Positions 53,692-58,837 of a DNA stretch of 64,000 nt are shown one piece after another (position 1 is the stretch's first letter; each line of letters opens with the position of its first letter). Origin of the DNA: Flavobacteriales bacterium (lineage in GTDB: Bacteria > Bacteroidota > Bacteroidia > Flavobacteriales_D > Crocinitomicaceae); contig CANMTO010000002.1 in assembly GCA_947500755.1 (NCBI GenBank), positions 62,001-126,000 on the forward strand, in the 5' to 3' direction. The translations under genes were made by a program, and so were the position numbers. The notes beneath the pieces are model-generated. The model saw only the letters and a program-made list of their open reading frames with translations, was not told the DNA's origin and made no database searches.

Positions 53692-54405
53692 ATGTCATCA
53701 AAATACATTTTACTTGCGTTTTTCATACCCATGGTTTTGTTTGGACAAAAGTTCAAGCAGGAGCGGTATAAAAATTTCGACCGCAGGTTGTTTCATTTTG
53801 GATTCATGCTTGGATTTAATTCGTCGGATTTCACCTTATATCCAGTTCAAAACGCCTACGAGCAATTCAAGATTTTGAATGTGCAAAATGACGCCCAACC
53901 GGGTGGACAACTCGGTATATTGACTACCATGCGCTTAGGCACTCCCATGATTCGATTGCGTTTTATTCCAACCATTTCATTTTTGGAACGATCCATTAAA
54001 TATACCTTCGAAGACACCACCGTCAAGTTCGGTTATCGCATTGAAGATGAGCGCGTAAACTCAACGAACTTAGACTTCCCATTCATGTTGCAATTCAGGA
54101 CGAAACGCTTGAATAATTTCGCGGCTTATTGTTTAATTGGCGGACAATATTCGATTGATTTACAGTCTCAAGAAAAAGCGTCACAAAACTTTATAGATCC
54201 ATTTATAAAAATAAAACGCTATGATTGGCAAGGACAAGTGGGCGGTGGTCTCGAATTCTTTGCACCCTACTTTAAATTTGGTATGGAGTTAAAATTCACA
54301 CATGGATTCAGTAACGTATTCGTGAAAGACAACACCTACATTGCCGCGCCTATTCAAACCTTATACAACAGAGGCTGGGTATTTTCAATAATCTTTGAAG
54401 GGTAA
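53692..54405 (+). CDS. porT: PorT-family outer-membrane protein (type IX secretion)
   Basis: 237 residues. A signal peptide (to about residue 19, MVLFGQ) is followed by a barrel-type sequence. LFHFGFMLGFNSSDFTLYP, GGQLGILTTMRLGTPMIRL and a closing GWVFSIIFEG are typical of PorT/SprT, required for T9SS export in Porphyromonas and Flavobacterium. Position right after ubiE supports the call. The length, the G-x-x-x-G strand ends and the presence of T9SS cargo in this window fit. The stop overlaps the following start by one base (TAATG). Confidence 0.85.
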   Translation: MSSKYILLAFFIPMVLFGQKFKQERYKNFDRRLFHFGFMLGFNSSDFTLYPVQNAYEQFKILNVQNDAQPGGQLGILTTMRLGTPMIRLRFIPTISFLERSIKYTFEDTTVKFGYRIEDERVNSTNLDFPFMLQFRTKRLNNFAAYCLIGGQYSIDLQSQEKASQNFIDPFIKIKRYDWQGQVGGGLEFFAPYFKFGMELKFTHGFSNVFVKDNTYIAAPIQTLYNRGWVFSIIFEG

Positions 54406-55931
54406 TGGAAGTAGTTTCCTTTGTGTGTAGTCCAGAAGAAGCGAAAGATTGGAGTGCAATCAAGCGAATCATTGAGAAACAAACGGGAAAAACGTATGAG
54501 TACATTCGTTGGAAAAAGCGCAGCATTGATGCGCGTTCTCGTCAAATTAAAATCAACGCCACATTTGAATGTTCCAATACTCCGCTACCCGACCGCATTC
54601 GAACCTTTACATTTCATAAGGTACATCATTCCCCTGAAGTTCATATCATTGGGGCTGGTCCAGCGGGATTATTTGCTGCATTAAAAGCCTTAATGCGTGG
54701 TCTAAAACCCGTTGTTTTTGAACGAGGCAAGGATGTTAAAGCGCGCCGGAGGGATTTAGCTCGAATTGCACGCGAACAAATAATTAATGAAGAATCTAAT
54801 TATTGTTTTGGAGAAGGCGGTGCAGGAACCTATTCTGACGGCAAATTGTATACCCGATCGAAAAAGCGCGGTGAGGTGGATTTAGTACTCGAACTTTTAG
54901 TGTATTTCGGGGCGGACGAAGATATTCTTGTTGAGGCGCATCCGCACATTGGAACGAATAAACTGCCTAAAATCATTGAGAATATTCGGAACTTCATTAT
55001 TGAACAGGGCGGCGAGATTCACTTTGAATCTAAATTAACCGGGATAACAAGAACTGATAACAAAATCAGTCACTTGGAGATCAACCATGGTGAACAGACA
55101 CCCATAAAACAGGTAATATTAGCTACAGGTCATTCTGCGAGAGATATTTTTTATTTGTTGCATCAAACGGGAATTAAAGTCTTGGCAAAACCCTTTGCCT
55201 TGGGGGTGCGCGTTGAACATACACAAGCCTTGATTGACCAAATGCAATATCACGGGCGATTAAACGACGAATATCTAGCTCCGGCTTCTTACAGTTTGGT
55301 AGAGCAAATCGATGGACGCGGTGTTTACTCCTTTTGCATGTGTCCGGGGGGTATCATTGCACCTTGCGCTACATCAAATGGCGAAGTCGTAACCAACGGA
55401 TGGTCACCGTCTAAACGCAACAATCCCTATTCGAATTCAGGAATTGTAGTTTCCATTGACCCAACTGATTTTGAAAACCCTGAGGATCCGTTTGTTTGCT
55501 TAACATTCCAACAAGAAGTTGAGAAATTATGCCACGACGCTACAGGAAATAATCAAAAAGTTCCTGCACAGCGTTTACTGGACTTTGTTGAAGGGCGAAA
55601 ATCAAAAGATTTTCCACGTTCTAGTTATACACCGGGAATAGAAAGTGTTCGACTCGACGAAGTATTACCGCCCCTTGTGGCCAAACGTCTACAGAAGGCA
55701 TTTCAGGCCTTTGACAAGAAAATGCCTGGGTTTCTTACCAACGATGCCGTAGTGCATGCACCGGAATCGAGAACTTCCTCACCTGTTCTGATTCCTCGGG
55801 ACAAAGAACGGATGCATCACGTGGAAATCATTAATCTTTACCCGTGTGCAGAGGGGGCAGGATACGCTGGAGGAATTGTGTCAGCAGCGATTGATGGGAT
55901 GAAATGTGTAGAGGCTTCCTCTAAACGATAG
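54405..55931 (+). CDS. FAD-dependent dehydrogenase (COG2509-like)
   Basis: 508 residues. An N-terminal basic region (EKQTGKTYEYIRWKKRSIDA) precedes the Rossmann motif IIGAGPAGLFAALKALMRGL (about 84-103). FGEGGAGTYSDGKLYTR and a C-terminal PCAEGAGYAGGIVSAAIDGM complete the FAD site and match the COG2509 'uncharacterised FAD-dependent dehydrogenase' group. The substrate is unknown. It is the last gene of the run that began at 50752, and ends 21 bp before the convergent GldL/M-like gene with no visible terminator between. Confidence 0.85.
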   Translation: MEVVSFVCSPEEAKDWSAIKRIIEKQTGKTYEYIRWKKRSIDARSRQIKINATFECSNTPLPDRIRTFTFHKVHHSPEVHIIGAGPAGLFAALKALMRGLKPVVFERGKDVKARRRDLARIAREQIINEESNYCFGEGGAGTYSDGKLYTRSKKRGEVDLVLELLVYFGADEDILVEAHPHIGTNKLPKIIENIRNFIIEQGGEIHFESKLTGITRTDNKISHLEINHGEQTPIKQVILATGHSARDIFYLLHQTGIKVLAKPFALGVRVEHTQALIDQMQYHGRLNDEYLAPASYSLVEQIDGRGVYSFCMCPGGIIAPCATSNGEVVTNGWSPSKRNNPYSNSGIVVSIDPTDFENPEDPFVCLTFQQEVEKLCHDATGNNQKVPAQRLLDFVEGRKSKDFPRSSYTPGIESVRLDEVLPPLVAKRLQKAFQAFDKKMPGFLTNDAVVHAPESRTSSPVLIPRDKERMHHVEIINLYPCAEGAGYAGGIVSAAIDGMKCVEASSKR

Positions 55932-55952: not shown

Positions 55953-57377
55953 CTATCTATTGGCAATCATTGAAATGGCCTTATTTCTTCCTTCAATTAT
56001 CTCGAGTTGTAACTTAGATAAATTATTCAATACTGAAATTAAAGACTCCCCACCGAATTCCTTTTCAACCCAATGGCTATTGTAGTCGCCCATATTATAT
56101 TTTTCAGGCTTATACATACTTGCGTACAAATCAAGCAGTTTAGTTACATCCTTCGGATTTACAATCTGACCTGAATTCGTAAGCAATTTTTCAAATTCTT
56201 GAATTCGTAATACAGAAGAATTGTTTTCTAAACTAATTTTAAAATTGGTAGTGTTGTTTGAATACGTACCACAAATTTCAACCAATTTATCTCTATAATC
56301 ATTAAAACCCATCCATATCGTTCTGTAAGCTTTTGATTGTTGGTGTGTATTTTCATCAAATGGTCCCAAAACCCTCCAACTCACTTCCCTATTTGACTGA
56401 TACATAATAGCATTAGCATTCAATTTAGCAGGTAATAGCGGATTATTATCATTGTATTTTACCCACAACAAACTATTAAAATCATTAACTCTTACATTAT
56501 TGTTAACCGCCTCACCAGCCTCCTTCAAAAGTAACAACTTTAAATCATCGATATTCTTGATTAGATCTTGCGCTAATCCATCGACATCATCGATTGCTTT
56601 TAATTTTGATTTTACTAATCCATCTCCAGCGCTGTCAACAGCACCTTTTGTAAGTTCAATTTGCATCAAATCACCAACATAAATCTTATTAACCATTTCA
56701 TCATGTAAAACAACTTGTTGGGATAACATTGAATCGGTAATTTTTATTTTATTATTATTCGCAATGAGTAACATCGAAAAAAGGGGAATTAAAACAATCG
56801 GAATAGATTTATCTGATATGCCAAACAACCCTCTTCGTTGATCCACATCACTCATAAAATAAGCCACAAATGAAATTACGAAAGAGATACTTCCAACGAA
56901 CATAAGTTCATTTACCCCTGGCCAATGCATTAAAAAGAAAAGAAAATAAATTGCAAGAATTGAAACACCAACATTTAAAAAAACATTGATGAACGAATGC
57001 GTAGAACTGCGGAATGCCACAGACCTTATAAAAAAGATAATTGATATGAAGGTTATGGAAAAAATCAACATTTCGTTACAAAATGGCCAGTGCATAATTT
57101 TGAATAAAAACCCTTGAATCATAATGGATAATAACAAATGGAATGTAATGGTGAAAAATTTAGAAAATCCTTTGATTGACGAATCTTTTCGAAAACCAAT
57201 TATTAAACTTGAAATACTTAAACCTAACATTCCTAAAATCAACATCTCATTGCATCCTGGATAATGGGATACTTTCATTCCGTAACCCGCAACAGTAACA
57301 ATCATAGAGAGGTAAATCAAATAATCTCCAATGTTATTTCGTGTCATTTTTTTTTCAATTACTAATTTTTCATTCAT
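55953..57377 (-). CDS. three tandem GldL-like transmembrane hairpins joined to a GldM-like periplasmic region
   Basis: 474 residues from the ATG at 57377; an upstream TTG is weak. Residues about 17-62, 72-118 and 130-175 form three repeated pairs of membrane helices. Each pair has the same motif after its first helix: K35-VSHYPGCNEML, K93-IMHWPFCNEML and F148-LMHWPGVNELM. This is like the K-I-x-HWPG of GldL, the T9SS/gliding motor stator. A seventh helix (about 191-206) leads to a soluble part ending WVEKEFGGESLISVLNNL, SKLQLEIIEGRNKA, like the end of the first GldM domain. GldL's TM2 glutamate after the motif is not evident. Likely a composite motor relative or paralogue; function inferred. 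Confidence 0.7.
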   Translation of the reverse strand: MNEKLVIEKKMTRNNIGDYLIYLSMIVTVAGYGMKVSHYPGCNEMLILGMLGLSISSLIIGFRKDSSIKGFSKFFTITFHLLLSIMIQGFLFKIMHWPFCNEMLIFSITFISIIFFIRSVAFRSSTHSFINVFLNVGVSILAIYFLFFLMHWPGVNELMFVGSISFVISFVAYFMSDVDQRRGLFGISDKSIPIVLIPLFSMLLIANNNKIKITDSMLSQQVVLHDEMVNKIYVGDLMQIELTKGAVDSAGDGLVKSKLKAIDDVDGLAQDLIKNIDDLKLLLLKEAGEAVNNNVRVNDFNSLLWVKYNDNNPLLPAKLNANAIMYQSNREVSWRVLGPFDENTHQQSKAYRTIWMGFNDYRDKLVEICGTYSNNTTNFKISLENNSSVLRIQEFEKLLTNSGQIVNPKDVTKLLDLYASMYKPEKYNMGDYNSHWVEKEFGGESLISVLNNLSKLQLEIIEGRNKAISMIANR

Positions 57378-57658: not shown

Positions 57659-58837
57659 ATGAAACGCGTGGTTGTTGGTCTTTCTGGTGGGGTGGATTCC
57701 AGTGTGGCTGCTTACCTTTTAATTCAACAAGGCTACGAGGTCATTGGCATGTTCATGCGCAATTGGCACGATGAAACGGTTACCCTTTCCAACGACTGTC
57801 CGTGGATTGATGATGCGAACGATGCCTTACTTGTTGCGCAACACCTTGGCATTCCCTTTCAAGTGGTGGATTTAAGTGCGCAATACAAAGACCGTATCGT
57901 AGATTACATGTTTCGCGAATACGAAGCCGGCAGAACGCCCAATCCCGATGTACTCTGCAACCGTGAGATTAAATTCGATGTATTTTTAAAGGAAGCCCTT
58001 GCCCTTGGCGCAGACTATGTAGCCACCGGACACTATTGCCGTAAGCTCATTCATGAAGATGGAACCCATGGGTTATTGAGTGGGCTCGACGGGAACAAAG
58101 ACCAGAGTTATTTCCTTTGTCAAGTGAGTCAGGAGCAACTTCAACGTGCCCTCTTCCCTATTGGCGACTTAACCAAGGCTCAAGTGAGAGAACTAGCAAG
58201 CGAACAAGGATTACTCACCGCAGAAAAAAAAGACTCTCAGGGTTTATGTTTTGTGGGAAAAATCAGTCTACCCACCTTTCTACAACAACAATTAGCCACT
58301 AAGCCTGGACCGATTATAGAAATTCCTAGCACGCTTCCACAATACGAAAGCTATCAAACGATACCGCATGACTTAGCGCATGTTGTAGAATTAGCAAGGC
58401 CCTTTACTTACGAAGCCTTCATGGGTAAGCAAGTTGCCACACACCAAGGCGCGCACTATTACACCATCGGACAACGCAAAGGCTTGCATATCGGCGGACG
58501 ACCAGAACCAAGTTTTGTACTGGCAACCGATACGCAAACGAATGTGATTTATTCAGGGCAAACCGATGAACACCCGGGACTATATCGACGAGCACTCCAA
58601 CTAAGTTCCAATGAAATCAATTGGATTCAGCCCATTCCAGAAGAATCGCTGGAAAAAGGGATTTCTTGTTCCATTCGAATTCGTTACCGTCAAGCGCTGC
58701 AAGAAGGAACCTTAATTAAAAAAGAAGGAATCTTGTATATATTATTTGAAAAACCTCAACGAGGAATTACGCCCGGACAGTTTGCGGCCTGGTATCAGAA
58801 CGATGAGCTGATTGGCTCTGGGATCATTGCGGAGTGA
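57659..58837 (+). CDS. mnmA: tRNA-specific 2-thiouridylase
   Basis: 392 residues. N-terminal PP-loop [18 protein letters not shown], catalytic cysteines in [12 protein letters not shown] and [11 protein letters not shown], and ATGHYCRK between them are diagnostic. A small acidic insertion ([12 protein letters not shown]) follows the NWHD segment. It adds sulfur to U34 of Lys, Glu and Gln tRNAs. The gene looks somewhat richer in G and C than the A/T-rich region to its left; this is a visual impression, not computed. A pair of palindromic repeats follows. Confidence 0.95.

Follow-up and report, generated by a model that had tools for sequence, protein, structure and literature searches.

The window, as we call the whole 64,000-nucleotide stretch analyzed here, carries on its minus strand a gene in which GldL-like hairpins and a GldM-like part are fused in one chain. 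The fusion gene, its parts and its neighbors are given below, the helix limits of the hairpins being taken from a full-length structure model of low confidence (pLDDT 48.7). H+15 is the position 15 residues past the loop histidine.

55953..57377, minus strand: fusion gene, 474 aa, ATG at 57377, stop codon at 55953-55955
57189..57332, minus strand: GldL-like hairpin 1, residues 16-63, loop KVSHYPGCNEM, Leu at H+15
57015..57167, minus strand: GldL-like hairpin 2, residues 71-121, loop KIMHWPFCNEM, Ile at H+15
56838..56996, minus strand: GldL-like hairpin 3, residues 128-180, loop FLMHWPGVNEL with the Lys lost, Phe at H+15
56760..56813, minus strand: seventh hydrophobic helix, positioned like the transmembrane helix of GldM (alignments and low-confidence model)
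55956..56759, minus strand: soluble part homologous to GldM domain 1 (hhalign, tblastn)
53692..54405, plus strand: porT/sprT of the type IX secretion system (T9SS) (NCBIfam T9SS_PorT_SprT, 153.4 bits, cut-off 125)
54405..55931, plus strand: FAD-dependent dehydrogenase-like gene (name by reading), left border of a variable slot
57659..58837, plus strand: mnmA-like gene (name by reading), right border of the variable slot

An alternative upstream TTG start would extend the product to 489 aa. One gene lies between porT/sprT and the fusion gene, of which porT/sprT is at most a possible companion. No partner gene of the GldM D3-D4 type is present among the frames adjoining the fusion gene, unlike in the related genomes G030 and G488 described below.

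The first-pass annotation of this DNA, made from the letters alone, had described three two-helix units with the pattern K/F-x-x-H-[WY]-P-x-x-N-E-[ML], the third without the lysine. Both statements are confirmed by the loops, since K and H of the K-x-x-H loop occur together in 2 of the 3 repeats (1 and 2) and repeat 3 has F and H in FLMHWPGVNEL. The repeats score 25.6, 43.7 and 23.7 bits with an HMM of 24 ordinary GldL hairpins (from 25 GldLs, one dropped for its short start). The best shuffled versions of repeats 1, 2 and 3 reached 6.5, 6.3 and 7.2 bits in 1000 shuffles each, of which 968, 1000 and 991 gave any score, and the top score among the other 212 of the window's 213 open frames was 3.1 bits. 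Comparison of the N-terminal repeats with GldL profiles, which the annotation had proposed, also gave a match to Pfam GldL_N (PF22827, cut-off 24), with 35.8 bits for the window protein and 30.5 bits in the genome search. The NCBIfam GldL equivalog TIGR03513 was missed (27.2 bits, cut-off 68.3). The window repeats share with GldL/PorL the two-helix hairpin with a K-x-x-H-[WY]-P loop. They differ in that three hairpins stand in tandem, the glutamate of the second transmembrane helix (TM2) is absent in all of them, no long soluble C-terminus follows the hairpin and the gene is outside gldKLMN.

This TM2 glutamate, E49 in F. johnsoniae, is strictly conserved and essential according to the sections consulted of two papers (PMC8986121, PMC9127263), and both E49Q and E49D abolish secretion (PMC9127263, same sections). 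Glu is found at H+15 in 25/25 unique ordinary GldLs, which were picked by a motif requiring K/R at H-3, so that their Lys count is not independent of the selection while their Glu count is. An acid at H+15 is found in none of 60 hairpin-like segments from 23 other proteins (a few of these segments, from three proteins of ~900 aa, are without KxxH), and it is also missing in 8/8 further hairpins from L136, L137 and L138. In the window protein no acid occurs within TM2 from H+9 to H+22 in any repeat; the glutamate that had been annotated as not evident is absent from all three, with L, I and F at its site. A few relatives carry an acid at a different TM2 position (L043 hairpin 1 at H+13; L044, L048 and L049 at H+22; also L054), and in these a shifted proton site would be possible. 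In alignment A1, which holds 23 hairpins of eight proteins, the Lys at H-3 is kept in 16, the His in 19 and the loop Glu (N-E-M/L) in 10; the window protein has the loop Glu in 3/3 repeats. On the GldM side, Arg9 is present in 29/29 GldMs. The RQKM start was seen in none of the 11 aligned fusions, although their junctions align only loosely and residues 181-182 of the window protein are an RR pair.

Profiles of three fusions (window protein, L036 and L039) and of 13 GldMs were aligned by hhalign over 262 columns with a probability of 100 and an E value of 1.5e-41. The similarity starts inside the seventh helix and runs to the end of domain 1 (D1), where the window protein stops; D2-D4 are absent. 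The seventh helix and GldM-like soluble part of the earlier description therefore stand, but not its confinement of the likeness to the last 45 residues, as nearly the whole of D1 is covered. When searched by tblastn against 60 relatives, the C-terminal part matched GldM-length frames at 21-34% identity. The best match (7.6e-36, residues 196-474) is to a frame at a contig end, and many other matched frames of GldM length adjoin gldL. The comparison with GldM that had been suggested for the C-terminal part was thus positive by both methods. Pfam GldM_1st (PF12081, cut-off 25) was missed by the window protein (15.3 bits), L048 (15.8 bits), L137 (13.5 bits) and L138 (17.6 bits), and passed by L036 (30 bits), L041 (55.3 bits) and L136 (51.8 bits), the last three exceeding the cut-offs of both GldL_N and GldM_1st. 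A profile of three fusion D1s searched against PDB sequences gave two chance matches and no GldM. Pfam GldL_N, the hairpin HMM and hhalign agree with the first reading of the protein as stator-like (GldL-like) and rotor-like (GldM-like) parts in one chain. Like GldM/PorM, the window protein has a helix followed by domain 1; unlike them, it is without D2-D4 and the RQKM/Arg9 start and is fused behind hairpins. Assignment as plain GldL or GldM was rejected: TIGR03513 is missed, the Glu, Arg9 and D2-D4 are absent and the gene lies outside gldKLMN.

The structure models are poor, the model of helix plus D1 (pLDDT 43.4) as well as the full-length one. With the full-length model, Foldseek gave no match at E < 0.001, PorL (7sat_D) ranking 22nd with a probability of 0.96 and E 1.9, and VIA-align placed GldL (7sax_D) 19th, below unrelated helical proteins (Z 7.6, 55 aligned, rmsd 1.9). 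With the D1 model, the top Foldseek match was PorM (7cmg_B; probability 1.00, E 0.12), GldM 6ys8 ranked 7th and 10th, and again nothing reached E < 0.001. The PorM match leans on GldM itself, because two of the three rows in the alignment behind the D1 model are GldM.

The surroundings of the gene were compared mainly in one genome pair, the genome of the window (G000) and G025. The flanking products are 87% (mnmA), 92% (FAD dehydrogenase) and 94-98% (others, two over partial length) identical in amino acids, and the slot protein of G025, of 402 aa, is 22% identical to the window fusion. Scored per 100 bases, the DNA flanking the slot is for the most part 72-99% identical, with a single value of 60%, and that within the slot 41-58%. 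Judged by this pair, the fusion gene occupies a hypervariable slot. A mobile element was rejected, since neither the 72,556 plasmid records nor the 50,697 phage records searched gave a match to the fusion protein, as was a known defense system (0/5 proteins given match PADLOC).

A separate gldKLMN, which the first annotation had suggested looking for, is present in the genome: four consecutive frames on contig C60 form a gldKLMN-type operon, the fusion being on C2. The first frame is presumably gldK-like (name by reading). The resident gldL scores 223 bits with TIGR03513, and the resident gldM 179.1 bits with TIGR03517, just below the cut-off of 180. The resident GldM also matches Pfam GldM_1st (42.3 bits) and GldM_2nd (37.9 bits) and gives no match to Pfam GldM_4th; gldN was assigned through similarity to a Pfam GldN protein. 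The window D1 is closer to the GldM of G025 (33.5%) than to the resident GldM (21.9%), which gives no sign that it pairs with the latter. The resident GldN is a mosaic relative to that of G025, with 90-100% identity at the C-terminal end and 12-25% in the middle. The motor genes of close relatives and the slot look like exchanged alleles, as far as such comparisons tell. We also recorded the identities of whole motor proteins. The resident GldM (L035) is 32% identical to that of G025 (L037) and 44% to that of G007 (L064), and the GldN 51% and 53%, respectively; GldL is 68% and GldK 93-95% identical between G000 and G007, GldK not being on the G025 contig. In some genomes from other genera of the same family, two GldM-like genes are found a few kilobases apart (G437:C7, G430:C28, G362:C2, G452:C13).

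The same architecture, which was to be looked for in other Bacteroidota, recurs in the same genus. Fusions with a GldM-like D1, that is, those also matching the GldM profile, were found in at least 6 of the 37 same-genus genomes within the 60 relatives (G000, G004, G020, G023, G025 and G030). A second survey, of 200 family genomes, gave at least 8 of 46 same-genus genomes among the matches listed, down to about E 2e-50 (G000, G004, G020, G025, G030, G488, G496 and G525); G488, G496 and G525 count by spanning the profile of alignment A1 instead, an alignment that includes 8 of the proteins its search recovers. The best candidates per genome were scored in the family and phylum searches, and among 296 phylum genomes full-span matches came only from G000 and G020, both of this genus. 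The two-hairpin kind was matched in 7 of the 296, several partially, again with the best candidates per genome. Other builds occur as well. L038 (second gene of G025) and L043 (G007) have 402 aa, three hairpins and a shorter C-terminal part that gave no significant GldM match. Three-hairpin proteins of ~260 aa without D1 are present in the genus. The order also has differently built proteins with two or three hairpins, among them L059, which passes GldM_1st (49.1 bits, cut-off 25) and scores 27.8 bits with GldL_N. In one close pair of full fusions, L036 and L039, dN/dS is ~0.24 (hairpins 0.37, D1 0.17), and this pair is under purifying selection.

In a D1 tree of 21 GldMs and 7 other rows, from which L038 and L043 were left out, the fusion D1 of G030 is sister to its own GldM (support 100/99; 68% identity). 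G012 has a 427-aa lipoprotein-like protein made of D1-D2 without hairpins (L047:4744-6027), and this is sister to the G012 GldM (100/100). These two sister pairs indicate that a local gldM donated pieces at least twice, with the lipoprotein counted. The label, G012 lipoprotein included, needs 4 changes on the tree, at least 3 by the starred branches. A single clade of the window protein, L036, L039 and L041 was marginally rejected (AU p 0.04, with long branches and a program warning). Hairpin fusions likely arose more than once according to this tree; the case of G030 could also be due to conversion of its D1 by the resident gldM.

In G488 the chain (L136) is 755 aa long and combines hairpins with nearly all of GldM, scoring 24.7 bits with GldL_N, 51.8 bits with GldM_1st and 46.1 bits with GldM_2nd; a GldM HMM matches it from position 18 to 575 of the model with 602 bits. 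The next same-strand genes in G030 and G488 encode one protein of 725/729 aa and two of 196-201 aa, with signal-peptide-like starts as judged by eye. The 196-201-aa proteins match the D3-D4 part of GldM only. The 725/729-aa proteins (L041:6432-8609, L136:3388-5577) share a module of ~90 residues with the G030 GldN (E 3.1e-8) and gave no match to an HMM of 9 GldNs (best -0.4 bits). These D3-D4 genes, together with the sister position of the G030 D1 to its own GldM, suggest a link between the fusions and the GldM machinery. Frames of ~190-235 aa that match GldM D3-D4 only were also noted, one or two per genome, in G004, G005, G006, G015, G020, G021, G024, G025 and G030.

Few rotary motors are known to run on protons, and GldLM is one of them; how its function depends on the 5:2 numbers of ring and shaft and on the proton path is a question on which the fusion bears. 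We give an even chance to the reading that the window protein is a motor-dead, single-chain paralogue of GldL and GldM, likely acting on the resident motor as a partner, brake or decoy. At the level of residues, the motor-dead build shows in the GldL TM2 Glu missing from all repeats and in the missing RQKM/Arg9 of GldM; the role as partner, strut, brake or decoy is the step that we infer with least certainty. As in GldL and GldM, the N-terminus would be cytoplasmic and the C-terminal domain periplasmic. Two chains would pair via the GldM-type domain, and the dimer is predicted to have two helices at its center within a ring of six hairpins, unlike the GldL5-GldM2 arrangement. Because such a fusion could not be driven by protons in the manner of GldL, it would work by taking a GldM-like position, from which it could bind to the ring or to other parts of the resident T9SS/gliding machinery. 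Bound there, it may be a passive strut, a brake or a decoy, possibly as a defense against an attacker of the motor. In the 5:2 rotary motors MotAB and ExbBD, a membrane ring likewise surrounds two helices that bear periplasmic domains, a likeness that holds through GldLM homology; ring and shaft are separate chains in those motors, whereas the window protein has three hairpins and one shaft helix in one chain and lacks the motor carboxylate (PMC9389320, sections consulted). Hexameric forms of ExbBD are reported in the same sections.

The first-pass annotation had suggested that the protein drives a different periplasmic machine, or else is a regulatory or degenerate form. The drive finds no support, as L, I and F stand at the Glu site and RQKM/Arg9 is gone. 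A regulatory form fits better and a degenerate one less well, because the L036/L039 pair is under purifying selection and fusions recur in the genus.

As an unlikely alternative, the protein may sense the proton-motive force or the envelope, its inactive motor parts having turned into a signal transducer. In favor of this, two proteins (L057:4679-5872 and L059:5110-6360) have two Glu-less hairpins set between an N-terminal soluble domain and a soluble C-terminal part, and a PadR-like gene stands beside the first (TIGR03433, 71.7 bits, below the cut-off of 101.8) and, by reading only, beside the second. However, both are distant relatives, the inspection of neighbors for a regulator covered these two of six proteins of the kind, and the window protein has neither a cytoplasmic output domain nor a regulator among its adjoining frames.

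We consider it improbable that the fusion is an active, independent motor that moves a periplasmic machine of its own by means of another ion or of other residues, such as the Glu in the N-E-M/L loop. The window protein does keep the loop Glu in 3/3 and the Lys in 2/3 repeats, the D3-D4-like proteins downstream in G030 and G488 could bear a load, and G488 keeps D1-D4. Yet the window protein has no acid from H+9 to H+22 in any repeat, the loop Glu is kept in fewer than half of the A1 hairpins, and in GldL E49D, like E49Q, abolishes secretion in the consulted sections of PMC9127263.

Decay of a functionless gldL/gldM duplicate is more doubtful still. It would account for the missing motor residues, the restriction to a minority of surveyed genomes and the long branch in the D1 tree, but the frames are open, dN/dS is 0.24 in the one close pair, the same build recurs in several genomes, and most A1 hairpins retain the Lys and His counted above. 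Chance resemblance of the hairpins or of the GldM part, for which only the sub-threshold GldM_1st score and the PDB search without GldM could speak, was rejected as barely credible on the strength of the shuffle controls, the hhalign E value and the three relatives that pass both Pfam cut-offs.

Beyond the reading as a motor-dead paralogue, we tentatively consider a wider possibility, a second trans-envelope apparatus that is modular, resembles GldLM and has the fusions at its core; it would be passive or energized in another way. Ring and shaft would be one chain (3:1, or 6:2 in the dimer) exchanged between genomes as a hypervariable cassette, some lineages would co-encode partners with GldM D3-D4 and the GldN module, and the apparatus may block, divert or tune the forces on the resident motor. 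As a natural single chain with a fixed 3:1 ratio and no residue to carry protons, the fusion sets build apart from power and lends itself to expression and structure determination. Searches of the open-access literature (subscription papers and preprints lay mostly outside it) turned up no report of a GldL-GldM fusion. A role in tuning or blocking the resident motor would make the fusion a type of T9SS/gliding regulator that we did not find described in that literature. The variability of the slot, like the strong differences between motor genes, may be the trace of an arms race around the motor.

As a separate observation, nine IMG/VR viral contigs (L098-L106, some of them near-duplicates) encode a GldL-like protein of 175-181 aa, for example at L098:3643-4176. 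It has one hairpin, keeps the TM2 Glu and lies among replication-type genes (names by reading). The L098 protein scores 98.3 bits with GldL_N and 116.5 bits with TIGR03513 (cut-off 68.3), and the phage record MT839621 matches the viral protein weakly (25%, 4e-7). From these features, the protein looks like a phage-encoded GldL.
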